This document shows, piece by piece, positions 232 through 49,409 of a DNA stretch of 64,000 bases. A program made the position numbers and the translations under genes. The notes beneath the pieces are model-generated. The model had not been told where the DNA came from and did no database searches. It saw nothing but the letters and a program-made list of their open reading frames with translations. Origin of the DNA: Leucobacter chironomi DSM 19883 (GTDB lineage Bacteria > Actinomycetota > Actinomycetes > Actinomycetales > Microbacteriaceae); assembly GCF_000421845.1 (NCBI RefSeq), contig NZ_ATXU01000007.1, positions 124,001 through 188,000 on the forward strand. The letters are read 5' to 3'. Numbering within the stretch: the first letter of the stretch is position 1; each line of letters opens with the position of its first letter.

Positions 232-2222
232 TGAGCGACACCACCACTCTCAGCCCCGTCGCGGCCCGCCAGACCGCGCTCGACCCGGTGACGTTCGAGG
301 TGCTGAAGAACGCCTTCGCCACCAGCGTCGACCTCATGAGCGAGCAGATCCTGCGCACCTGCTACTCCTTCGTCATCTACTCCCGCGACTTCTCGTCGGC
401 GCTGTGCGACGCGCACGGCAACACGGTGATGCAGGGATCCGGCGATATCGCGGTGCACGTCGGCACGCTGCACTTCCAGGCGAAGGCCGTGATCGAGCAG
501 TTCGGCGGCGACATCCACCCGGGCGACGTGTTCGCGATCAACGACCCGTACCGCGGCGGCACGCACTTCAACGACGTCTCCTTCGTGCGCCCCATCTTCT
601 CCGAGGGCCGCATCATCGCCTTCGCGCAGAACAAGGGCCACTGGGCCGACATCGGCGGCAAGGTGCCCGGATCCTTCGACGTGTCGGCCTCGGAGCACTT
701 CGGCGAGGGTCTCCGGATCACCCCGATCCGCGTCTGGTCGAAGGGGGTGTTCCTGCACGACGTCGCTCAGCTGCTCGTCGCGAACACCCGCGCCCCGGAG
801 CAGGCGCTCGGCGACCTGCACGCGCAGTCGGAGGCCACCGCCGTCTGCGAGCGCGAGGTGCTGCGCCTCGTCGACCGCTACGGCACGGAGACCGTCGAGC
901 TCGCGATGCAGGAGACGCAGGACTACGTCGAGCGCACCGTGCGCCGCCGTCTCGCCGACCTCCCCCGCGGCACCTGGGAGACGGTCGACTACCTCGACCT
1001 CGATCCGGGCAAGCCCGAGGGTCTTGTGCCGATCAAGATCACCATGACGCTCGACGGCGAGGGGATCCACTACAACCTCGAGGGCAGTGCCGACGTGGTC
1101 GACACCTTCCTCAACTCGGGATACGGCACCACGTTCTCGGCGATCTACGCGGGCACGAAGACCTTCTTCCCCGACGTGCCGCTCAACTCCGGCTTCTACG
1201 CGGCGGTGACCGCCGACATCGGTCCCGAGGGCACCGTGGTGAACGCCGGCTGGCCCTACGCGGTCACGGGCTTCTGCTCGGGCCCGTACGAGAAGCTCAT
1301 GAACGGCATCTTCGAGATCTGGTCGCAGCTCATGCCCGAGCGGGCGATGGCCTGCGCCTTCAACCTCGAGTACCTGCTCGTCGGCGGGCGCGACGCCCGC
1401 AGCGAGTCGAAGCCGTACTTCATGTGGTACGACTGGATGGCCGGCGGCTGGGGCGGCCGCTCCTCGAAGGACGGCTCGAGCGCCACCGCTCCCGTGTTCG
1501 GCGTGGGCCTCGCGGTGCAGGCGTGCGAGGGGCAGGAACGGCTCACGCCGGTGCTCACCACGATGCACCGGATCGGCACCGACTCGGGCGGGCCCGGCCG
1601 CTTCCGCGGCGGTTGCGGCGTCGAGAAGGGCGGCACCCTCACCGACGCCGACGCCTCGGTGATGAGCTACTGCTGCGACCGCGCCCGATCCATCACCTGG
1701 GGCATCGAGGGCGGCCTGCCCTCGATCCCGCACGGCGTATGGCTCAACCGCGACACCGAGAACGAGCGCTTCCTCGGCTCAATCTTCTCATCGGTGCCGG
1801 TGCAGCCGGGCGACACCTTCTACCGGCCCTCGGCCGGCGGCGGCGGCTTCGGCGACCCGCTCGACCGCACTCCGGAGGAGGTGCTCGAAGACGTGATCGA
1901 CGACTACGTCTCGATCGAGCGCGCGGCCGAGGACTACGGCGTGGTCATCGCGCCGATCGATCCCGAGCTCGACCGCTACGAGATCGACCGAGAGGCCACG
2001 CTGGCCAAGCGCGCCTGGATCCGCGAGCACCGCGCCGCCTGGCTCCAAGCCGATCCGCACGAGATCGCCGAGCAGTACCGCGCGGGGCGCCTCGACCTGC
2101 TCGACGTGATCCGCCGGCACGGCGTGATCCTCGACTGGGGCACCGGCGAGCTCTTCGAGGAGACGACGAGGCAGCACCGCGCGCAGATGAGCCGCCGCTC
2201 GCTCGACCACTGGAGCCGATAG
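231..2222 (+). CDS. hyuB: Hydantoinase/oxoprolinase B subunit (HyuB family)
   Basis: 663 aa, about the usual size for a free-standing HyuB. Family features seen: N-terminal DPVTFEVLKNAF, the internal NDPYRGGTHFNDVS segment, the glycine-rich GGPGRFRGGCG stretch, and the C-terminal PSAGGGGFGDPLDR. It should form a cytoplasmic ATP-dependent amidohydrolase with the HyuA product upstream. The start ATG at 231 overlaps the upstream stop; an in-frame GTG further up at 192 lies inside hyuA and is not needed. A permease of the NCS1 class follows, which points to uptake and ring opening of a hydantoin, allantoin-like or pyrimidine-like compound. 5-oxoprolinase activity is an alternative. Confidence 0.9.
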   Translation: MSDTTTLSPVAARQTALDPVTFEVLKNAFATSVDLMSEQILRTCYSFVIYSRDFSSALCDAHGNTVMQGSGDIAVHVGTLHFQAKAVIEQFGGDIHPGDVFAINDPYRGGTHFNDVSFVRPIFSEGRIIAFAQNKGHWADIGGKVPGSFDVSASEHFGEGLRITPIRVWSKGVFLHDVAQLLVANTRAPEQALGDLHAQSEATAVCEREVLRLVDRYGTETVELAMQETQDYVERTVRRRLADLPRGTWETVDYLDLDPGKPEGLVPIKITMTLDGEGIHYNLEGSADVVDTFLNSGYGTTFSAIYAGTKTFFPDVPLNSGFYAAVTADIGPEGTVVNAGWPYAVTGFCSGPYEKLMNGIFEIWSQLMPERAMACAFNLEYLLVGGRDARSESKPYFMWYDWMAGGWGGRSSKDGSSATAPVFGVGLAVQACEGQERLTPVLTTMHRIGTDSGGPGRFRGGCGVEKGGTLTDADASVMSYCCDRARSITWGIEGGLPSIPHGVWLNRDTENERFLGSIFSSVPVQPGDTFYRPSAGGGGFGDPLDRTPEEVLEDVIDDYVSIERAAEDYGVVIAPIDPELDRYEIDREATLAKRAWIREHRAAWLQADPHEIAEQYRAGRLDLLDVIRRHGVILDWGTGELFEETTRQHRAQMSRRSLDHWSR

Positions 2223-38339: not shown

Positions 38340-38517
38340 ATTTTCCCTGAATGAATAACCTGTCTGTCACATCTGCCTAGATTCTTCCTGGCAGCTTGTA
38401 ACAGGCCCCACCGCCTGATTAGCATCGGGCACCGGACGGCGTTGTCCACTGACGCCGTGTCCCCTTCCGCTCGACGCCCCCGCCGAGCGCGAGACACCCC
38501 CCAGAGTGAGGAACACC

Positions 38518-39525
38518 ATGGCAGTCATCCGCAATCGCAGCAGGGCATTCGCCTTCGCCGGCCTGGTCGCGACCGCGGCGCTCGCCCTGAGCGCCTGCTC
38601 CTCGGCGAACTCCGGCGACGACGCCGGCTCCGAGAAGATCACCGTCGGCATCAGCCAGTTCGTGCAGCACCCCGCGCTCGACTCCGCCACGGAGGGCTTC
38701 AAGCAGGCCTTCATCGACGCCGGCTACGTCGAGGGCGAGACCATCGAGTTCAACGAGAAGAACGCGCAGGCCGAGGTCGCCACCGCCACCACGATCGCCC
38801 AGACCTTCGCCACCGACGGCGTCGACCTGTTGCTCGCGGTCGCCACCCCCTCCGCCCAGGCGGCGATGCAGAACATCGTCGACGCGCCCGTGCTCTTCAC
38901 GGCCGTGACCGATCCCGTCTCGGCCGACCTCGTCGAGTCGAACGAGAAGCCCGGCTCCAACGTCACCGGCACGAGCGACATGAACCCCGTCGCCGACCAG
39001 ATCGACCTCATCACCGAGATCGTGCCCGACGCGAAGAAGATCGGCGTGGTCTACGGCTCGGGCGAGGTCAACTCGGAGATCCAGGTCGACCTGGCCCGTG
39101 AAGCGGCCGAGGCGCAGAACATCGAGCTCGTCGAGGCGACCGTCACCAACGCCGGCGAGATCAAGCAGGCCGTCGAGTCGCTGGGCGACGTCGACGCGAT
39201 CTACACTCCCACCGACAACCTCGTGGCCTCGGGCCTCGGCGCCCTGATCGGCGTCGCCGAGGAGCGCGGCATCCCTGTCGTCGGCGCCGAGTCGGCCCAC
39301 GTCGAGGGCGGCGCCGTCGCCACGCTCGGCATCGACTACACGAAGCTCGGCTACCAGACCGGCGAGATGGCGCTGAAGATCATCAAGGACGGCGCCGATC
39401 CCGCCACCATGGCCGTCGAGACCTCGAAGGATCTCGAGCTGGTCGTCAACCCTGCCGCCGCCAAGCGCATGGGCGTCGAACTGCCCGCCGCGCTGGTCGA
39501 GCGCGCCGACAGCACGGTCGAGTAA
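38518..39525 (+). CDS. TrpX-like ABC binding lipoprotein, cassette 1
   Basis: 335 aa. Lipoprotein signal with LSAC and Cys27. The body is the ABC_sub_bind family used in TrpXYZ importers of firmicutes (tryptophan) and relatives: VGISQFVQHPALDSATEGFK, GSNVTGTSD, YGSGEVNSEIQ, TPTDNLVASG and GAESAHVEGGAVATLGIDY. It should bind an amino acid at the membrane surface; tryptophan is an inference. ATG 38518 has GAGGAA just upstream; an in-frame GTG at 38506 is less likely. The permease follows after 5 nt. Confidence 0.88.
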   Translation: MAVIRNRSRAFAFAGLVATAALALSACSSANSGDDAGSEKITVGISQFVQHPALDSATEGFKQAFIDAGYVEGETIEFNEKNAQAEVATATTIAQTFATDGVDLLLAVATPSAQAAMQNIVDAPVLFTAVTDPVSADLVESNEKPGSNVTGTSDMNPVADQIDLITEIVPDAKKIGVVYGSGEVNSEIQVDLAREAAEAQNIELVEATVTNAGEIKQAVESLGDVDAIYTPTDNLVASGLGALIGVAEERGIPVVGAESAHVEGGAVATLGIDYTKLGYQTGEMALKIIKDGADPATMAVETSKDLELVVNPAAAKRMGVELPAALVERADSTVE

Positions 39526-39530
39526 ACGCC

Positions 39531-40490
39531 ATGATCGGAGCTCTCGAGCTGGGCCTCATCTACGGTGTGATGGCCCTCGGCGTCTACCTCACGTTCCGGG
39601 TGCTGAACTTCCCCGACCTCACGGTCGACGGCAGCTTCACCACCGGTGCCGCGGTCGCCGCCTCCCTCATCAGCGCGGGGCAGAACCCCGTGCTCGCCAC
39701 TGTAGCGGGTGCCGTGGCCGGCCTCATCGCCGGCGCCATCACCGGTCTGCTGCACACCAAGGGCAAGATCGACGGCCTGCTGGCCGGCATCCTCACCATG
39801 ATCGCGCTGTGGTCGATCAACCTGCGCATCATGGACAAGGCCAACGTGCCACTGCTGCGCGAGGACACCGTCATGACGCCGCTGCGCGAGGCGGGCTGGA
39901 TCGGCAAGACCTGGATGGCGGTGCTCGTCTTCGTGATCGCGCTGTTCGTGCTCAAGCTGATCGTCGACTGGTTCCTGTCGACCGACCTCGGTCTCGCGAT
40001 CCAGGCGACCGGCAACAACGAGCAGATGATCCGCAGCTTCGGCGTGAACACCGACGGCACCAAGATCCTCACCCTGTCGCTCTCGAACGGCCTCGTGGCC
40101 CTCGCCGGTGCGCTCGTGGCGCAGTACCAGGGCTTCGCCGACATCAGCATGGGCGTCGGCCTCATCCTCGTGGGCCTCGCCTCCGTGATCCTCGGCCAGG
40201 CGGTGCTCGGCCAGCGCAACCTCTTCATGGCCAGCCTCGCGGTGCTCGTCGGCTCGATCCTCTACCGACTCATCGTGTTCTTCGCCCTCACCGCGGGGCT
40301 CAACCCGAACGACATGCGCGCGGTCACGGCCGTGCTCGTGATCCTCGCGCTGCTGCTGCCGCGCTGGGGCTTCCTGAAGAAGATCCCATCGCTGCGGGAT
40401 CGGGGCAACCGCAGACCCGCAGCCCCCGACCCAGCGCCGGACCCCGTCGCTTCGGCGACGACCGGCGTGACCGTGCCGGCGGAGAGGTAG
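39531..40490 (+). CDS. ABC permease, cassette 1 (TrpY-like)
   Basis: 319 aa, about eight or nine helices, of the branched-chain-type permease family (BPD_transp_2). Conserved pieces are YLTFRVLNFPDLTVDGSFTTG and GLAIQATGNNEQMIRSFGVN, shared almost unchanged with cassette 2. Only 5 nt after the binding protein and 7 nt before the ATPase, so a tight operon. The last 35 residues are polar and disordered. Confidence 0.9.
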   Translation: MIGALELGLIYGVMALGVYLTFRVLNFPDLTVDGSFTTGAAVAASLISAGQNPVLATVAGAVAGLIAGAITGLLHTKGKIDGLLAGILTMIALWSINLRIMDKANVPLLREDTVMTPLREAGWIGKTWMAVLVFVIALFVLKLIVDWFLSTDLGLAIQATGNNEQMIRSFGVNTDGTKILTLSLSNGLVALAGALVAQYQGFADISMGVGLILVGLASVILGQAVLGQRNLFMASLAVLVGSILYRLIVFFALTAGLNPNDMRAVTAVLVILALLLPRWGFLKKIPSLRDRGNRRPAAPDPAPDPVASATTGVTVPAER

Positions 40491-40497
40491 GAACGCC

Positions 40498-41289
40498 ATG
40501 CTGAACATCGACCGCATCTCCAAGACGTTCTTCGCGGGAACGATCAACGAGCGCAAAGCGCTCGTCGATCTGAGCCTGCGCCTCGACGAGGGCGACTTCG
40601 TCACCGTGATCGGATCGAACGGCGCCGGCAAGTCGACGCTGCTCAACGCGATCGCGGGCCGCTACACCGTCGACACCGGGTCGCTCACCGTCGACGGCAA
40701 GCCGGTGACGAAGCTCAAGGAGTACCAGCGCGCCCGCTACGTGGGCCGCGTGTTCCAGGATCCGATGGCGGGCACCGCGCCCGACCTCACGATCGAGCAG
40801 AACCTGTCGCTCGCGCTGCAGCGCGGCAAGGCGCGCGGCCTCGGCCTCGGGATCACGAAGTCCCGGCGCGAGCAGTTCGTGGAGGAGCTGAAATCGCTCG
40901 AGCTCGGCCTCGAGAACCGGCTCACCGCGAAGGTCGGTCTGCTCTCGGGCGGTCAGCGCCAGGCGCTGTCGCTGCTCATGTCGGGATTCACGAAGCCGCG
41001 GATCCTGCTGCTCGATGAGCACACCGCGGCGCTCGACCCGCAGCGGGCCGCGCTCGTGACCGACCTCACCGAGCGCATCGTCGCCGAGGGCGGGCTGACC
41101 ACCCTCATGGTGACGCACAACATGGAGCAGGCGCTCAAGCTCGGCAACCGCCTCATCATGATGCACGAGGGGCGCATCGTCTTCCAGGCCTCGGCCGAGG
41201 AGAAGCAGCACCTCACCGTGCCGCTGCTGCTCGCGGAGTTCGCGAAGATCAAGGGCGCGAGCTTCGACGACCGGGCGCTGCTCGCTTAG
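40498..41289 (+). CDS. ABC ATPase, cassette 1 (TrpZ-like)
   Basis: 263 aa. Walker A GSNGAGKST (39-47), Q-loop in GRVFQDPMAGTAPDLTIEQN, signature LSGGQRQALSLLM, Walker B ILLLDEHTAALDP and switch VTHNMEQAL. Glu follows the Walker B aspartate, so it should be active. It is the last gene of the first cassette; a double hairpin region follows. Confidence 0.93.
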   Translation: MLNIDRISKTFFAGTINERKALVDLSLRLDEGDFVTVIGSNGAGKSTLLNAIAGRYTVDTGSLTVDGKPVTKLKEYQRARYVGRVFQDPMAGTAPDLTIEQNLSLALQRGKARGLGLGITKSRREQFVEELKSLELGLENRLTAKVGLLSGGQRQALSLLMSGFTKPRILLLDEHTAALDPQRAALVTDLTERIVAEGGLTTLMVTHNMEQALKLGNRLIMMHEGRIVFQASAEEKQHLTVPLLLAEFAKIKGASFDDRALLA

Positions 41290-41296
41290 CAACGAA

Positions 41297-41315
41297 GGCG
41301 GGCCCGGCGCCCGCC
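41297..41315. terminator. Short hairpin after cassette 1
   Basis: GGCGGG (41297-41302) with CCCGCC (41310-41315) around a 7-nt GC-rich loop, 7 nt after the ATPase stop. Weak on its own; the larger palindrome that follows may complete termination. Confidence 0.4.
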
Positions 41316-41329
41316 CGATCTGAGGGGGA

Positions 41330-41376
41330 AAACGAGACGCGCCGTCTCGTGCAGGACGAGGCGGCGTGTCGCGTTT
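41330..41376. repeat. Nested palindrome between the two importer cassettes
   Basis: Arms 41330-41350 and 41356-41376 match at 18 of 21 positions around a 5-nt loop. The left arm is itself palindromic (ACGAGACG-CGC-CGTCTCGT, 41332-41350), so the DNA can fold as one long hairpin or as two. Probably the main terminator of cassette 1. Confidence 0.75.
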
Positions 41377-41439
41377 CCGGAAGGCAACGTGTCGATCACG
41401 AAACCGCGGCCGGTTTGCGCGAATCGGGTCGCCGCGGTC

Positions 41440-41504
41440 TACGATGCTTGAATCGGCGTTTACTCGCGCCGATTTCTCAGTTCGCCGAGGCACTGGTCTC
41501 GGCG
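41440..41504 (+). promoter_or_regulatory. Promoter and leader hairpins of cassette 2
   Basis: A possible -10 box TACGAT (41440-41445) is followed by two hairpins in the expected leader: AATCGGCG (41451-41458) with CGCCGATT (41467-41474), and CGCCGAG (41483-41489) with CTCGGCG (41498-41504). The second ends 27 nt before ATG 41532. They may simply stabilise the message or may control it. Confidence 0.5.
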
Positions 41505-41531
41505 GGTAGACCTGCGAAGGATCGATAACAC

Positions 41532-42548
41532 ATGCGTCAGACCTCGTTCCGCCGTGCGCTCGCCGCAGCAAGCCTCACCGCTGCTGCCGCGCTCACGCTC
41601 AGCGCCTGCTCCGGCTCCTCGGAAGCGACCGACAGCGCCGATGCCACCGTCGAGAAGGTCACGATCGGCATCAGCCAGCTCGTGCAGCACCCCGCGCTCG
41701 ACTCGGCCACCGAGGGCTTCAAGCAGGCCTTCATCGACGCCGGCTACGTCGAGGGCGAGACCGTCGAGTTCGATCTGCAGAACGCCAACGGCGAGCAGGC
41801 CACCGCTGTCTCGATCGCGCAGGGCTTCGCCTCCTCCGACGCCGACCTCGTGCTCGCCGTCGCCACCCCGGCCGCGCAGGCCGCCGCGCAGGCCATCACC
41901 GACAAGCCCGTGCTCTTCACCGCGGTCACCGACGCGGTCACCGCCGAACTCGTCGACTCGAACGCGAAGCCGGGCGGCAACGTCACCGGCACCAGCGACG
42001 CCGTGCCCGAGGACGCCCTGCAGGCGCAGTTCGAGCTCATCAAGGAGCTCGTGCCCGACGCCGCCACCGTGGGCATCGTCTACGCCTCGGGCGAGGTGAA
42101 CTCCGAGGTGCAGGTCGCCGCGGCCGAGAAGGTCGCCGCCGGTCTCGACCTCGAGATCGTGACGAAGACGGTCACCACCGCCAACGACATCGCGCAGGCC
42201 ACGGAGGCGCTCGGCGACGTCGACGCCATCTACGTGCCCACCGACAACATGGTCGTCGGCGGCATCTCGTCGCTCGTGCAGGTCGCCGAGGAGAAGCAGA
42301 TCCCCGTGATCGGCGCCGAGGCCGGCACCGTCGAGGGCGGCGCGATCGCCACGCTCGGCATCGACTACACCGAGCTCGGCCGTCAGACCGGCGAGATGGC
42401 GATCCGCATCCTGAAGGGCGAGGATCCCGCCAAGACCCCCGTCGAGTTTGCCACCGAGCTCGCCTACGTGGTCAACCCGGGCGCCGCAGAGCGCATGGGC
42501 GTCGAGATCCCGCAGGACATCCTCGACCAGGCCGAGACCGTCGGCTAA
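41532..42548 (+). CDS. TrpX-like ABC binding lipoprotein, cassette 2
   Basis: 338 aa. Lipobox LSAC with Cys26. It is a close paralogue of the cassette 1 protein; the blocks GISQLVQHPALDSATEGFK, QAFIDAGYVEGETVEF and EGGAIATLGIDYTELGRQTG are nearly the same. Differences lie mainly in the middle lobes that line the ligand cleft (for example TDPVSADLVESNEK against TDAVTAELVDSNAK), so related but different ligands are possible. The permease follows after a 113-nt gap, not 5 nt as in cassette 1. Confidence 0.88.
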   Translation: MRQTSFRRALAAASLTAAAALTLSACSGSSEATDSADATVEKVTIGISQLVQHPALDSATEGFKQAFIDAGYVEGETVEFDLQNANGEQATAVSIAQGFASSDADLVLAVATPAAQAAAQAITDKPVLFTAVTDAVTAELVDSNAKPGGNVTGTSDAVPEDALQAQFELIKELVPDAATVGIVYASGEVNSEVQVAAAEKVAAGLDLEIVTKTVTTANDIAQATEALGDVDAIYVPTDNMVVGGISSLVQVAEEKQIPVIGAEAGTVEGGAIATLGIDYTELGRQTGEMAIRILKGEDPAKTPVEFATELAYVVNPGAAERMGVEIPQDILDQAETVG

Positions 42549-42661
42549 CAGCCACGACTGGCAGACCCGCCGCCGGCTGAGCTCGCCGGGGCACGGATCC
42601 GATCCCGGATCCCGCCCCCGCGGTTCAGCCGGCGGCTCTGCACGACAGTAAGGAACATCCC

Positions 42662-43684
42662 ATGATCGGCGCGCTCGAACTCGGACTCATCTACGGTGTG
42701 ATGGCGCTCGGCGTCTACCTCACCTTCCGGGTGCTGAACTTCCCCGACCTCACGGTCGACGGCAGCTTCACCACCGGCGCAGCCGTCGCGGCGGCGCTGA
42801 TCACGCTCGGGCAGAACCCGGTGCTCGCCACCGTGGCCGGCGCGGTGGCCGGAGTGCTCGCGGGAATCGTGACCGGCCTGCTGCACACGAAGGGCAAGAT
42901 CGACGGCCTGCTGGCGGGCATCCTCACCATGATCGCGCTGTGGTCGATCAACCTGCGCATCATGGGCACCGCGAAAGAAGGCGCGTCTGGCGCCGCCAAC
43001 CTGCCGATGCTGCGCGCCGAGACCGTCTTCACCCCGCTGCGCGACGGCGATCTACTGGGCACCTGGGGCGGCATCGCGATCATCGCGGCCGGCGTGCTGG
43101 TGCTCAAGCTCGTGGTCGACTGGTTCCTGTCGACCAACCTCGGTCTCGCGATCCAGGCGACCGGCGACAACGGCCCGATGATCCGCAGCTTTGGCGTGAA
43201 CACCGATCGCACCACGATCCTCACCCTCGCCATCTCGAACGGTCTCGTCGCGCTCTGCGGTGCGCTCGTGGCGCAGTACCAGGGCTTCGCCGACATCAGC
43301 ATGGGCGTCGGCCTGATCCTCGTGGGCCTCGCCTCCGTGATCCTCGGCCAGGCGATCTTCGGGCAGCGCTTCATCTGGATCGCGAGCCTCGCCGTGATCT
43401 TCGGCGCGGTGCTGTACCGCCTCATCATCTTCTTCGCGCTGCGCGCCGGGCTCGACCCCAACGACATGAAGTTCATCACCGCCGCCCTCGTGGTCGCGGC
43501 GCTGCTGCTGCCGCGCTGGGGCTTCCTGCGCAAGCTGCCCGCGCTGCGCCGCCGCGGCGGCTCCGTGGTGATCGAGACCGAGGCCGCCCGGGCCGCGCAG
43601 GCCGGTGCCGGCGGGGCGGATCCCGAACCGGCGACCACCGCGCCCGCTGAGGGCGCATCCTCCTCAGAGACCAGCGGAAGGTAG
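42662..43684 (+). CDS. ABC permease, cassette 2 (TrpY-like)
   Basis: 340 aa. Nearly the same as the cassette 1 permease in its first 100 residues and in the later helices. It carries an insertion in the periplasmic loop after MIALWSINLRIMG (AKEGASGAANLPM) and a longer polar C-terminal tail. AAGGAA lies upstream of ATG 42662. The ATPase follows after 4 nt. Confidence 0.9.
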   Translation: MIGALELGLIYGVMALGVYLTFRVLNFPDLTVDGSFTTGAAVAAALITLGQNPVLATVAGAVAGVLAGIVTGLLHTKGKIDGLLAGILTMIALWSINLRIMGTAKEGASGAANLPMLRAETVFTPLRDGDLLGTWGGIAIIAAGVLVLKLVVDWFLSTNLGLAIQATGDNGPMIRSFGVNTDRTTILTLAISNGLVALCGALVAQYQGFADISMGVGLILVGLASVILGQAIFGQRFIWIASLAVIFGAVLYRLIIFFALRAGLDPNDMKFITAALVVAALLLPRWGFLRKLPALRRRGGSVVIETEAARAAQAGAGGADPEPATTAPAEGASSSETSGR

Positions 43685-43688
43685 TCGC

Positions 43689-44480
43689 ATGCTCAAGATC
43701 GACAAGATCGAGAAGACCTTCTTCGCGGGCACCGTCAACGAGCGGCGTGCGCTCGCCGGGCTGAGCCTGCACCTCGACGAGGGCGACTTCGTCACCGTGA
43801 TCGGATCGAACGGCGCAGGCAAGTCCACACTGCTCAACGCGATCTCCGGCCGCTACACCGTCGACACCGGCAGCATCGAGATCGACGGCCGCCGCGTGAA
43901 CAGGCTCAAGGAGCATCAGCGGGCGGCCTACGTGGGTCGTGTGTTCCAGGACCCGATGGCGGGCACCGCCCCCGACCTCACCATCGAGCAGAACCTCGCC
44001 CTCGCGGTGCGGCGCGGCAAGCGCCGCGGGCTCGGCCTCGCGCTCACCCGGTCGCTGCGCGAGCGCTTCCGCGACGAGCTGCAGTCGCTCGAGCTCGGCC
44101 TCGAGAACCGGCTCACCGCGAAGGTCGGTCTGCTGTCGGGCGGTCAGCGTCAGGCGCTGTCGCTGCTCATGGCCGGGTTCACGCACCCGAGCATCCTGCT
44201 GCTGGACGAGCACACGGCCGCGCTCGATCCGCAGCGTGCCGCGCTGGTGACCGAGCTCACGGGCCGGATCGTGTCGCAGGGTCGGCTGACCACCCTCATG
44301 GTGACGCACAACATGGAGCAGGCGCTGCGCCTCGGCAATCGCCTCATCATGATGCACGAGGGGCGCATCGTGTTCTCGGCCTCGGCCGACGAGAAGCGCA
44401 CGCTCACCGTGCCGCGGCTGCTCGAGGAGTTCGGCAAGATCAAGGGCGCTCAGCTCGACGACCGCGCGCTGCTGTCGTAG
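43689..44480 (+). CDS. ABC ATPase, cassette 2 (TrpZ-like)
   Basis: 263 aa, the same length as its cassette 1 paralogue. Complete ATPase motifs: GSNGAGKST, LSGGQRQALSLLM, ILLLDEHTAALDP and VTHNMEQAL. Long stretches of DNA are also shared with cassette 1 (for example around VGRVFQDPMAGTAPDLTIEQN), indicating a fairly recent duplication or gene conversion. ATG 43689 follows the permease stop by 4 nt. Confidence 0.93.
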   Translation: MLKIDKIEKTFFAGTVNERRALAGLSLHLDEGDFVTVIGSNGAGKSTLLNAISGRYTVDTGSIEIDGRRVNRLKEHQRAAYVGRVFQDPMAGTAPDLTIEQNLALAVRRGKRRGLGLALTRSLRERFRDELQSLELGLENRLTAKVGLLSGGQRQALSLLMAGFTHPSILLLDEHTAALDPQRAALVTELTGRIVSQGRLTTLMVTHNMEQALRLGNRLIMMHEGRIVFSASADEKRTLTVPRLLEEFGKIKGAQLDDRALLS

Positions 44481-44571: not shown

Positions 44572-44693
44572 ATGCACGCGATTGGGGCTGATCGGGCGCG
44601 CGGGCGTGGACTGCTTGCGGGCACGGACGATGCCCAGGCGCGAGGGCTTGAGCAGTGCCCGCGTGCGCTCCCGATTTTGTCGGAGGCGACCTC

Positions 44694-44699
44694 TACAGT
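44694..44699 (+). promoter_or_regulatory. -10 box of the PutA-like gene
   Basis: TACAGT ends 6 nt before ATG 44706; a leaderless transcript is likely. No clear -35 box. Confidence 0.55.
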
Positions 44700-44705
44700 G
44701 GGCAC

Positions 44706-47700
44706 ATGGCAGCAGAATCTTTCGGTCGCGACACGACGTGGGAGGCGATCGCCGGCCAGGCCGAGACGCGCGCCGCGGGCTGGCTCGCGGCGCTGTGCGC
44801 TCGCGACGGCGATGAGCAGCCGGGCTTCCTGCGGGCGATGCGGCGAGATCCTGAGAGCTTCGAGTTCACACGGCGCCTCCTCGAACTGCTCGCGAGCACC
44901 GAAGACGTGTTCGCGTCTGCCGCGGGGCTGCGCGAGGTCGCCCAGGAGGTGCCCCCCTCGCTGCCGGTGCGGGATCGCCTGGCCGTGCGCGCGGGAGGCG
45001 CGACCTCGCTGGGGCTGCCCTGGGCCGTGCTGCCGATGGCGCGTCGGCGCCTGCGCGAGCGGGTGGCCGACCTGGTGCTCGCCGCGAAGCTGCCGGCCGG
45101 CGGCAAGGTCGCCGGCCCGGCCCGGATGAGCCGCCTCACCGAGGCGCTGCGCCGCCTGGGCGAGGCCGGAATGGTGCCTGTCGTGATGCCGCTCGGCGAG
45201 GCGGTGCACGGCCCCGCCGGTGCCGAGGCCGAGGTCTCCAGGCTGGTCGCGCTCTGCGCCCTGCCCGCCGTGGGGCACGTGGTGGTCGATCCCGCCCGCA
45301 TCGCGCCCGGCGGCACCGACTGGTCAGCCGAAGACGACGTGCTGCGCGCGGTGCGCGCCCTGCGCCCCGTGCTCGACGCGGCCGCCGAGCACGGCACGAC
45401 CGTGCACCTCGAACCCCGCAGCGTGCGGTGGGCGCGGCTGCTGCCCGAGGTCGTGGTGCGCGCTCTCGCCGACGCGGCGCTCGACCGGGTGCGGGTGGGG
45501 GTGCGGATCATGGCCGAGCTGCCGGAGTCGCGCGAGCTCTACGACCGCATCAGCCGGTGGGCGCAGCAGCGCGCGGCAGACGGCGGGGCCGCGGTCGAAG
45601 CCGTCATCGGCGTGGCCGGGGTGGCGAGCGCCGAGCGCATCGCCTCGATCGAGAGCGGACTCCCCGTGCCGGTGCTCGAGGATCGCGAGCAGGTCACGGC
45701 TCAGCTGCTGCGCCTCATCGAGCTCGCGCTGCACCCGGGGCGGGCCGCCGTGCTGCGCCCCGTCATCGCGTCCGAAGATCTCTTCGTGCTGAGCGGCACG
45801 GTGGCCCTGGCCGAGCAGCTCGGCGCGCAGGGGCTCTTCTCCCTGCAACTGCGCAGCGGCATCGCACCCGGCCTCGCGCAGGTGCTCGCGGACGCGGCAG
45901 CCGAGGTGCGCGTCTCGCTGCCCGTCGTCGCGCCGCGGGAGTTCTCGGGCGCGGTCGATCTGCTCGTGGGGTTCGCAGCCGAGGCCGCCGACCCCGAATC
46001 GGTCGTCGCCCGTTTCGACGCGCTCGTCGAGGCCGGGGGCGAGCGTGTGGATCCCGATCCCGATTCCGACTCCGGCCCCGATCCCTATCCCGACTCCGAC
46101 TCCGGCCCCGGCCCCGATCCCGACTCCGACTCCGGCCCCGATCCCGATCCTGACTCCGACTTCGACTTCGAACCTGACGCAGGCGCCGCGGCCGGGGTGA
46201 TCGAAGCGGAGCGGGCGGCATTCCGCGCCGCTGCGGCACTCGCCGCCGACCCGGCACCCGCGTCGCACCGCACGCAGCTGCGCGCCCGCGAGTGGGATCC
46301 GAGCGAGCGCGACAGCGCCCTGTTCTACCGTGCGCCCGACGAGCCCGCGCGCTTCGACACGGGCGGGCTCACCGCCGCCGTGCTCGGCCTCACGCGAGGC
46401 TCGACGGGCGAGGTGCGCCTCGAATCGCTGGCGCCGCCGTGCCCGATCCCCGTGGTCTCGGAGTCGGGCTTCGCGGGCGAACCCGCGACCGACGCGAGCC
46501 TCGCCGGCAACCGCGACTGGGTGCGGGCGCTGCTCGTGCGCGCGGCCGAGGGCGTGACGCTGCGGGCGGGTGCGGATTCGTCCGTCGATGCCGATTCGGA
46601 GGCGCATGAGGAGCCGGCCGCCGGCGCCGAATCGGACGCTCCGTCAGGCGTCGGCGGCGAGGGGGCTGCGGTGGTGTCGGCCGGCACCGATCCCGCTGAG
46701 CTGCACGGCGAAGCCCCCGAGCCGGTCGCCGAGCCGCAGCAAGCCGCAGAGGAGACCGAGCTCCCGGAACCCGCCGAGCCGCTTCCGCACACGGCGCGCG
46801 ACGCCGGTCAGGGCTGGAGCGGGCAGCCCGCGCGGGCGCGGGCCTCGCGATTGCGGCGGGCCGCGCTCGCCGTGGTCGCCGCACGGGATCGCATGCTGCA
46901 GACGCTCGCCGCGGACACCGGGGCACCCGCGGGGGAGCTCGACGCCGAGGTGGGCGACATCGTCGACGCCGCCCGCTACTCCGGTCAGCTCGCGGAAGGG
47001 CTCGCGGCGGTGAGAGGCGCGACGTTCGTGTCGGAGGGGTTCGTGCTCGTCCTCGCCGATGCGATCACGCCGCTCTCGGTGCAGGCCGAGTCGGTGCTCG
47101 CGGCGCTCGGCGCCGGCAACGGCGTGCTGTGGGCGGTGCCCGGGCGCTTCCTGAGCTCCGCCGAGGCGCTGCTCGAGGAGTGGGAGGTCGGCGGCGTCAC
47201 CCCTGGCGCGGTCGCCCTCGAAACAGTGGGCGAGTCGGCGCAGTTCTTCGAGCGGGTCTCCCGCGCCGGCATCGACCGGGCCATCGTGCTCGGCGATCGC
47301 GCCGCGGCTCGCGAGATCGCCCGTCGCCGGCCCGATCTGCAGATCGAGGGCCGATTCCACGCGCGGGGCACGGTGCTCGTGGCGCCGTCGGCCGACCTCG
47401 ACCGGGCGATCGACGACCTGGTCGCCTCGGCGTTCTCGGCTGCGGGGGCGCACCCGCGCACCGCTCAGGTGGCGATCCTGCTCGGTAGCGTGGGGCGCTC
47501 GCGTCGTTTCCGCGACGGCCTCGGCGACGCAGTGCGTGCCCTGCGGGTGGGCGACACTGCCAGGCCGGAGGGAGCGGATCCGCTCAGCTTCGACGTGGGG
47601 CCGCTCGCCGCGCCCGCCGGGGACGCCGCGCTGCGGGCGCTCACCGAGCTGGGGCGCGGCGAGGAGTGGCTCGTGCAGCCGCGCATGCTCGACGCCGACG

Positions 47701-48713
47701 GCCGACTGTGGAGCCCCGGCGTGCGTCTCGGCGTCTCGGCGTCGTCGTCGTTCTGGGACGATGCCCGCGGGGTTCCGGTGCTGGGCATCGCACACGCGCA
47801 CACGCTCGATGAGGCGCTGCGGCTGCAGAACGCGGTGGGCGGCGGCGTCGCGGCGGGTCTGCAGTCGAACGACGCCGATGAGATCCTCGACTGGCTCGCC
47901 GGGGTCGAGGCGGCATCGCTGACGATCAACCGCCCCACCACGGCGGCACGCATCGAGCGGCATCCCGGCGGCGCTTGGAACGACGCCGCGATGGGCCTGC
48001 CTGCGCTCAGCGGCGGCCCCAACCGTCTGCTGCCGTTGGGTGCCTGGCAACTGCGAGAGGGCACGCGCAGCGAGACGCTGCACCTGCGCGGGCTGGAGCC
48101 CGAGGTGCGGCTGCTCATCGAGGCGGCGCAGTCGGTGCTGCACTACGAGGAGTTCGACGAGGTGCGGCGTGCGGCGCTCGCCGACGCACTCGCCTGGCGC
48201 ACCTCATTCGGGCTGGAACGCGACACGATCGGCCTCGGTATCGAACGCAACGTGATCCGCTACCTGCCCGTCGTCACGCAGCTGCGGCTCGCCGAGGGCG
48301 GCAGCATCGCGTCGCTCGTGCGTGTGCTCGCCGCGGCGCTGCTCGTGCGCGCGCCCGTATCGGTGTCGACCGGCGAGGTGCTGCCGGCGGCGGTCACCGC
48401 CTTCCTCGAGCGGCAGGGCGTCGAGGTGTCGCTCGAACGCGACGACGACTGGGTGGAGCGTCTCGCGGTCTCCGGCCCGGTCACCGCAGATGGTGTGGTG
48501 GCCGACCGGGTGAGACTGATCGGCGGCGACGCGGTGCGGGCGGCCGAGTGGATGGGCGGGCTGGATCGCGTGGCGCTCTGGGCGCAGCCTGTGACGATGG
48601 CGGGTCCGGTCGAGCTGCTGACGCTGCTGCGCGAGCAGTCGGTGTCGGCGCGCGCGCACCGGCACGGTCTCGCGACCGAGGTGCCGGGCCTCGACGAACT
48701 CATCGAGGAGTGA
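44706..48713 (+). CDS. PutA-like protein with degenerate proline dehydrogenase and aldehyde dehydrogenase halves
   Basis: 1335 aa. The N-terminal half follows actinobacterial PutA proline dehydrogenase in outline ([12 protein letters not shown] where NLLGEAV is usual; [19 protein letters not shown] where the enzyme ends its barrel), but the KGAN/RLVKG-type catalytic block is missing. The C-terminal half follows the aldehyde dehydrogenase fold ([40 protein letters not shown]), yet GAHPRTAQ (914-921) stands where the catalytic Cys motif GQKCSA should be, ADAITP replaces PWNFP, and LWAVPGR replaces LKPA. Two acidic linkers (about 449-491 and 640-715) separate the parts. The frame is intact over 4 kb, so it looks maintained. 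Probably a pseudoenzyme with a regulatory or scaffold role; calling it active PutA would be wrong on these residues. Confidence 0.75.
46051..46178 (+). repeat. Coding tandem repeat for an Asp-Pro-Ser linker
   Basis: Degenerate repeats of GACTCCGACTCCGGCCCCGA-type units encode a run of [10 protein letters not shown] motifs (residues about 449-491). The acidic linker is not part of any PutA I know. Repeat number may vary between strains. Confidence 0.85.
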
Positions 48714-48764: not shown

Positions 48765-49229
48765 TCAGCCGAGGCGCATCGGGGTGTGCGGGATGCCATC
48801 TTCGAGGAACTCCTCGCCGCACGGCGTGAAGCCGAAGCCGCCGTACCAGGAGGCGAGGTGCGACTGGGCGTGGATCAGGATCGGGCGGCCTGCGCATCCC
48901 TCGATGGCGGCCCGCAGCAGCGCGGCGGCGACGCCCCGGCCGCGCCAGGCGGGGGCGGTGACCACGCGCCCGATGCTCACGAGGTTCGCTTCCTGAGCGC
49001 TCTCGTCGAGGACGCGCACGGTCGCGGCGATCTCGCCGTCAGCGGTCTGCGCCCAGAGCTGCGTCGCGCCGGCTTCGAGATCGCGGCCGTCGAGGTCGAG
49101 ATAGACGCAGTCCTGCTCCACCACGAAGACCTCCTGCCGCAGCCGGGCGATGCGGTAGAAGGTGCTGGTGGGGATGTCGTCGACGCGGTCGGCCGTGACC
49201 AGGGTGAGTTCTTCGGGGAGCGCGGGCAT
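48765..49229 (-). CDS. ElaA-like GNAT acetyltransferase
   Basis: 154 aa. GNAT core with the ElaA-type N-terminus (FYRIARLRQEVFVVEQDCVY, DLDGRDLEAGATQLWA) and acetyl-CoA loop VVTAPAWRGRGVAAALL. Substrate unknown. ATG 49229 is the first start that gives only family sequence; the frame extends upstream to 49400 through the tRNA gene and is not credible there. Confidence 0.88.
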   Translation of the reverse strand: MPALPEELTLVTADRVDDIPTSTFYRIARLRQEVFVVEQDCVYLDLDGRDLEAGATQLWAQTADGEIAATVRVLDESAQEANLVSIGRVVTAPAWRGRGVAAALLRAAIEGCAGRPILIHAQSHLASWYGGFGFTPCGEEFLEDGIPHTPMRLG

Positions 49230-49289
49230 GTTCCGATCCTGCCATGCCGGTGCGGCGCACGCCGATTTCCGTTCGCGAGAGTGAGACGC

Positions 49290-49295
49290 TAAAGT
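49290..49295 (+). promoter_or_regulatory. -10 box of the tRNA-Tyr gene
   Basis: TAAAGT, 29 nt before the mature 5' end. The -35 region is weak. Confidence 0.45.
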
Positions 49296-49324: not shown

Positions 49325-49409
49325 GGCGGATTACCCGAGCGGCCAAAGGGGGCTGACTGTAAATCAGCTGGCACTGCCTACGGGGGTTCGAATCCCTCAT
49401 CCGCCACCA
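49325..49409 (+). tRNA. tRNA-Tyr (anticodon GUA)
   Basis: Class II tRNA with a long variable arm. Acceptor stem GGCGGAT (49325-49331) pairs with ATCCGCC (49399-49405), followed by A and an encoded CCA (49407-49409). Anticodon stem GCTGA/TCAGC (49352-49356 and 49364-49368) closes the loop CTGTAAA with anticodon GTA at 49359-49361. T loop GTTCGAATC is present. Confidence 0.97.

Follow-up and report, generated by a model that had tools for sequence, protein, structure and literature searches.

The closest described relatives of the gene reported here are the type B PutAs, in which the core of proline dehydrogenase (PRODH) and aldehyde dehydrogenase (ALDH) halves is joined by a C-terminal domain; in one such enzyme, according to an excerpt of PMC5293562, this domain has a part in ALDH activity and in channelling. 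A non-catalytic job is also on record for a PutA, namely for the trifunctional DNA-binding PutA (in excerpts of PMC5293562 and PMC9132996). The window analyzed in this work is a stretch of 64,000 nucleotides from Leucobacter chironomi DSM 19883, in which positions 44706-48713 encode a PutA-like protein of 1335 residues, referred to below as the window protein. This protein shares the domain order, the predicted fold and the C-terminal domain of the type B PutAs but lacks both active sites, and it differs from the trifunctional PutA in having neither a detected N-terminal DNA-binding domain nor the catalytic residues. Outside the PutAs, two inactive proteins invite comparison, the trypanosome S-adenosylmethionine decarboxylase prozyme and human ALDH16A1, the latter of which we take to have no PRODH half and a separate origin. 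ALDH16A1 is presented in part of PMC8160307 as an ALDH pseudoenzyme without the catalytic cysteine and as a proposed binding protein. The prozyme is described in part of PMC6221367 as a dead paralogue retained beside the live enzyme, with which it forms an active complex, whereas 6/45 good Leucobacter genomes (defined below) hold the dead PutA without a strong match to a live one. A search of the open-access literature by topic words (PutA/proline dehydrogenase pseudoenzyme, inactive paralog, Leucobacter) found no description of a dead PutA.

Both active sites are lost from a PutA-like protein

The initial annotation of this locus, made from the DNA letters, had described a very large PutA-like protein with a two-enzyme layout in a 4-kb frame without stops, and both parts of that description stand. 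The frame contains no internal stops from the ATG at 44706 and stays open back to a GTG at 44655. Pfam found Aldedh (E 2e-30, 106 bits) and Pro_dh (E 2e-7, 31 bits; cut-off 27) homology in one chain, both above the curated cut-off, and the closest solved structure by sequence was 5ux5, the PutA of Corynebacterium freiburgense (E 2e-96). On the NCBIfam PutA equivalog model the window protein scored 37.9 against a cut-off of 747, and the genome's own PutA, at 370.7, likewise fell below. The Pfam search returned Aldedh and Pro_dh alone and no DNA-binding domain, and the DNA-binding role that had been suggested was therefore rejected.

In order to compare the active sites, the window protein was aligned with its relatives and with real PutAs, and 15 positions were read, of which nine belong to the PRODH and six to the ALDH site. 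The catalytic and flavin adenine dinucleotide (FAD) positions of PRODH are, as we take them in E. coli PutA numbering, K329, D370, R431, H487, Y540, R555 and R556. For the ALDH site, part of PMC12398946 gives Cys844 as the nucleophile together with Glu810 in Sinorhizobium meliloti PutA. The window protein reads DEMVVESGFIARPAG at the 15 positions; the reference PutAs read KDQRKHYRRNKECEF in 10/11 cases and KDQRKQYRRNKECEF, which differs at one position, in the other. The segment AGQKCSAAS of 5ux5 aligns with AGAHPRTAQ of the window protein, and Pro917 and Arg883 occupy the positions of the catalytic Cys and Glu, respectively. All of the motif losses quoted at the outset, that is, those of the ALDH cysteine motif, ADAITP, LWAVP in place of the LKPA lysine and the PRODH catalytic block, were confirmed by this alignment, which against the 11 references left no Cys/Glu pair and none of the FAD or proline residues checked in place.

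The same loss extends to the relatives of the window protein. Of the 15 residues, not one remains in 33 of 37 Leucobacter-clade sequences, and the other four retain a single one (Asp370 in two, Arg555 in two). All 15 are present in 30 active sequences of PutA-2, our working label for a second kind of Microbacteriaceae PutA, which is not an established family (PutA-1 is likewise a label). By alignment, the catalytic and cofactor residues checked in both active sites are gone.

The PutA fold is predicted to be intact

The window protein was modelled as two separate parts. The AlphaFold2 model of residues 1-445 (mean predicted local distance difference test, pLDDT, 94) is a barrel for which Foldseek returned PutA structures as the best PDB matches, and the model of residues 500-1335 (mean pLDDT 85.6), with a folded C-terminal domain, had 5ux5 as its top match (E 1e-46). 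The linker was modelled with pLDDT of about 43-66 in blocks, and segments at residues 535-553, 561-566 and 568-580 fell below 50; this low confidence reflects either flexibility or the absence of the first half from that model. Each part, modelled separately, matches a PutA fold best, and the fold is predicted to be intact in both halves. Loss of the catalytic residues with retention of the fold, which marks a pseudoenzyme, is thus what we find, the fold being a predicted one. It is very improbable, judging from the residues, that weak PutA activity persists through displaced side chains: the predicted fold does match PutA, but Cys, Glu, Lys and Asn of the ALDH site and Lys329, Tyr540 and Arg556 of the PRODH site are found in 0/37 Leucobacter-clade sequences.

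The dead protein is maintained across Leucobacter

Genomes with completeness of 90% or more and contamination of 5% or less, 45 of the 54 from Leucobacter, are called good here. A dead PutA-2 copy was counted in 54/54 genomes and in 45/45 good ones, the genus-wide figure being a count by similarity and the active sites having been read in an aligned subset. The copy was counted in every genome because each best match of the window protein (E ≤2.7e-110) was stronger than the best row of an active PutA (6.7e-91). The ratio of nonsynonymous to synonymous substitution rates (dN/dS), obtained by a simple Nei-Gojobori count, was 0.04-0.19 for the dead protein in nine close Leucobacter pairs and 0.06-0.20 for the active PutA in three pairs, which indicates purifying selection on the dead protein.

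The promoter is conserved as well. A TANNNT sequence lies 5-8 bases before the start in 35/35 related Leucobacter loci, compared with 0.58% of 10800 positions drawn at random from such loci, and a Shine-Dalgarno-like run at -16 to -5 was seen in 0/35. Together these support a leaderless message with its start at 44706, in agreement with the clean leaderless promoter that had been noted upstream of this gene (TACAGT). That the gene is decaying or an assembly artefact is hardly credible. Its catalytic residues are lost and its frame is split in G001, G007, G009, G024 and G044 (in G061 the end piece alone was found), but its presence in all genomes of the genus, its dN/dS and its conserved promoter speak for maintenance by selection, and we reject decay, as the initial annotation had. 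Furthermore, the active putA is split in G009 and G024 as well, so insertion/deletion or sequencing errors are likely there. Taken with the loss of both sites, this evidence of selection supports the proposal of a bifunctional pseudoenzyme, and retention throughout the genus suggests a second, non-enzymatic job of the PutA family.

Upstream of the -10 box, at 44660-44672, stands the GC-rich sequence CGCGTGCGCTCCC, which has similar counterparts in many orthologues. A conserved GC-rich box was considered (29/35 related loci) but is not claimed, since its loose pattern fits 9/15 active loci too.

The dead protein descends from PutA-2

Two trees, with 85 and 118 rows, place the dead Leucobacter and Canibacter proteins (lineage A), with Klugiella basal, among other Microbacteriaceae PutAs, the PutA-2 group, and not next to the PutA that Leucobacter itself carries. 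A careful 43-row tree joins lineage A and Klugiella with support of 100/100. Both fall in a set of 33 rows (100/99); Leucobacter's own PutA lies outside that set, joined to G029 at 99/98. An internal fork of the 33-row set is open and three rows labelled PutA-1 fall inside it; the 'other' PutAs do not form one clade, and PutA-1 and PutA-2 are therefore only labels. According to these trees, the dead PutA descends from PutAs of the family Microbacteriaceae other than the genome's own, and a close duplicate of the genome's own PutA is ruled out, as the two are placed apart.

Two further loci show partial loss. The Klugiella xanthotipulae protein (L107) is in a half-way state, with the ALDH site gone and 7/9 PRODH residues kept (SDQRKHYRQ), and the same organism carries another full PutA. 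In a third line, L264 of genome G198, the ALDH Cys, Glu and Asn are lost and Arg occupies the Lys329 position, with the other eight PRODH residues kept; L264 was considered as an early member of lineage A and rejected, because the 43-row tree sets it apart. Both are half-dead intermediates, in which ALDH is lost and PRODH nearly intact, and could reveal the order of loss.

A second, independent loss in Microbacterium

Dead PutA-2 copies were also identified in 18/89 Microbacterium-group loci, and these make up lineage B. The set was obtained from 99 searched genomes; ten without a clear long match to PutA-2 were set aside, among them G092, whose weak split fragments may represent a further dead copy. 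Sixty loci were taken by position, and L229 proved to be another PutA. The remaining 59 comprise 41 with all 15 residues, one (L227) with two unreadable positions and 17 dead copies. A further 30 loci, taken by similarity to the M. hydrocarbonoxydans copy, comprise 28 intact ones, one with a single change (L153) and that dead copy itself. In L153 (genome G106) the IKPA lysine position holds Ser and the other 14 residues are present.

All 18 dead copies form one clade in the 118-row tree, and the seven included in the 43-row tree form a clade (93/99) inside Microbacterium. On the tree, the ALDH site requires three changes and the PRODH site two, and a single origin of lineages A (with Klugiella) and B is rejected (approximately unbiased test, p-AU 0.009), the tested group having been named after a tree was seen. 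Both active sites were, on this reading of sites and trees, lost independently in the Microbacterium clade. A two-enzyme machine of 1300 residues has lost both chemistries more than once yet stayed under selection.

Another strong Pro_dh match is present in 18/18 genomes with a dead Microbacterium copy and in 31/71 of those whose PutA-2 is complete or almost so; G119, where the second match consists of weak pieces, was scored as lacking one. The Fisher p of 5e-6 is inflated by relatedness, as the 18 dead copies are one clade.

Conserved stretches suggest a binding or scaffold role

Active PutA-2 and two independently dead lineages constitute a natural experiment, in which features common to all three and missing elsewhere point to function. 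Mean conservation in dead Leucobacter compared with active PutA-2 was 0.66 vs 0.87 in the barrel, 0.76 vs 0.66 in the linker motif and 0.76 vs 0.75 in the C-terminal domain. The linker at residues 528-564 is among the best-conserved stretches of the dead Leucobacter family, with two 15-residue windows at 0.90 and 0.92 vs 0.44 and 0.72 in active PutA-2; window 662-676, also high in the conservation table, was disregarded as its columns are filled by few sequences. Measured in this way, constraint in Leucobacter has moved away from the barrel.

A comparison of nine lineage-A, 18 lineage-B and 73 active sequences identified 181 positions with one residue shared across all three groups. At 28 of these the commonest state of nine other PutAs differs, often being a gap, and the 28 cluster at 555-561 (linker) and 1119-1158. 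The exact string TLHLRGL is present in lineage A 9/9, lineage B 18/18, active 58/73 and other PutAs 0/16, and the pattern LTxxVxG in 8/9, 18/18, 59/73 and 1/16, respectively, counts that are partly built in for lineage A, most of whose rows were found by a TGGLTAAVL or TLHLRGL pattern search; 17/18 lineage-B rows were found by protein similarity.

What has probably preserved the pseudoenzyme, on this evidence, is a role in binding or as a scaffold, one that PutA-2 had already. PutA-2 would have borne this non-catalytic job while still an enzyme; with proline oxidation covered by another PutA, catalysis could go and the non-catalytic job would keep the protein. The PutA body would then serve as a scaffold that binds a partner, which need not be a PutA, or a ligand through the LTxxVxG linker and through TLHLRGL with the C-terminal domain. 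A broader version, to which we give an even chance, is that PutA-2 moonlights, with a non-catalytic job more essential than its catalysis, that catalysis was dropped when another PutA was present, completely at least twice (Leucobacter/Canibacter and Microbacterium) and partially at least once more (L264), and that the dead protein outlives the live one in some Leucobacter.

It is also conceivable, though unlikely, that new charged residues have reshaped the barrel pocket and that the protein is a new enzyme or ligand sensor, which binds or converts another small molecule. The Lys329 position holds Asp in 36 and Glu in one of the 37 Leucobacter-clade sequences, the His487 position holds Glu in 34 and Asp in three, and D195, R198, R351 and R383 are invariant in 23; a gene for a TrpX-like transporter lies directly upstream in 17/24 usable loci. 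However, the barrel of the dead family is less conserved than its linker and C-terminal domain, the reverse of its rank in active PutA-2, lineage B has different residues at these positions and the checked cofactor residues are gone.

Several points weigh against the binding or scaffold role. It is proposed from comparison of sequences, and its partner, ligand and phenotype are hypothetical. The shared stretches may just hold the fold together, 15/73 active rows are without TLHLRGL, and the lineage-A motif counts carry the bias of the pattern search. The extended lineage-A linker is missing from lineage B, and the newly fixed charged barrel residues of lineage A (Asp at Lys329, 36/37; Glu at His487, 34/37) would be needless for a pure scaffold. 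In Microbacterium, dN/dS is higher in the dead copies (0.18-0.33, eight lineage-B pairs) than in the active ones (0.08-0.16, six PutA-2 pairs). In the trees, row composition is uneven, some of the inner forks stay open and the 'other' PutAs do not group as a single clade. Finally, linkage to the transporter is not universal (17/24) and was not seen in lineage B.

Active PutA in the same genomes

A search for an active putA elsewhere in the L. chironomi genome identified an ordinary PutA at G000:C9:113119-116607 (Pro_dh 211 bits), to which the window protein is 25% identical in the first half and 37% in the second half. Across Leucobacter, a strong Pro_dh match (E <1e-30) was found in 45/54 genomes and in 39/45 good ones. 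It was missing from six good genomes (G004, G005, G045, G048, G063 and G067), all of which still carry the dead protein, along with between 16 and 31 aldehyde dehydrogenase matches per genome; G004, G005 and G048, which are single-contig, gave no Pro_dh match even at E 0.001. Some Leucobacter lines without a live PutA thus retain the dead one, and a putA-like gene may encode no proline dehydrogenase.

These counts bear on the possibility that the dead protein serves specifically to regulate or chaperone the active PutA of its genome through mixed oligomers, like other dead paralogues. Co-occurrence of the two proteins in 45/54 Leucobacter genomes and in 18/18 Microbacterium genomes with a dead copy, together with the kept C-terminal domain, is consistent with such a role. 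The low identity between the two and the six good genomes that hold the dead protein without a strong Pro_dh match make it improbable, more so than a rebuilt pocket. Of the suggestion that the protein binds a true PutA, the obligate form is weakened by these six genomes.

Features of the locus and its surroundings

The features of the locus, in window positions, and the lineage-B copies are collected in Table 1. The upstream ATP-binding cassette (ABC) transporter scored 298 bits on NCBIfam TrpX, below the cut-off of 390. For the analysis of neighbours, 25 Leucobacter loci were fetched and L037 was dropped, its flank being 119 bases. Besides the 17/24 usable Leucobacter loci, one Canibacter locus (L113) and one of G228 (L282) have a TrpX-like transporter gene directly upstream; an adjacent transporter was not seen in Klugiella, in several other Leucobacter or in the lineage-B loci. 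A conserved operon was considered as a pointer to function and set aside because the linkage is patchy, and it is retained as a lead only. The transporter neighbour hints at amino-acid physiology and is no proof of it.

Table 1. Positions of the dead PutA-2 gene, its parts and neighbours in the window, and of the dead copies in Microbacterium
Feature	Position	Strand	Basis
TrpX-like ABC transporter: substrate-binding protein, permease, ATPase	41532..44480	+	PF04392, BPD_transp_2, ABC_tran
-10 box TACAGT of leaderless promoter, 6 bases before ATG	44694..44699	+	read in sequence; TANNNT in related loci
Dead PutA-2 (bifunctional pseudoenzyme, as supported by sequence), 1335 residues	44706..48713	+	open reading frame, Pfam, active-site alignment
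PRODH-like half, residues 1-445; predicted beta/alpha barrel without FAD and proline residues	44706..46040	+	model, Foldseek, site alignment
Acidic Asp-Pro/Asp-Ser run, residues ~449-492, variable among relatives	46050..46181	+	read in sequence; conservation 0.44 over residues 436-503
Linker motif, residues 528-564	46287..46397	+	high conservation in dead Leucobacter family; low model confidence
ALDH-like half, residues 691-1110, without catalytic Cys, Glu, PWN Asn and IKPA Lys	46776..48035	+	Pfam, site alignment, fold model
TLHLRGL and stretch behind it, residues 1119-1160; common to active PutA-2 and both dead lineages	48060..48185	+	sequence comparison
C-terminal domain, residues 1161-1335	48186..48710	+	conservation; folded in model
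GNAT acetyltransferase, convergent with dead gene	48765..49292	-	neighbour annotation
Dead copies of lineage B, inside Microbacterium	L130:5857-9456 and 17 of loci L214-L240		site reading, trees

Upstream, tandem TrpX-like ABC transporter sets with two permeases and two ATPases span approximately 38500-44480; the substrate-binding gene occupies 41532-42548 and is matched a second time, with 62% identity, farther upstream. A tRNA-Tyr gene is located at 49325-49409, just past the convergent acetyltransferase gene. In the Microbacterium loci, a class-III aminotransferase gene (e.g. L294:3542-4765) is found near PutA-2 in 12/19 active and 2/13 lineage-B cases, and a 4HBT_2 thioesterase-like gene (e.g. 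L294:11414-11998) lies near PutA-2 in many, active and dead alike.

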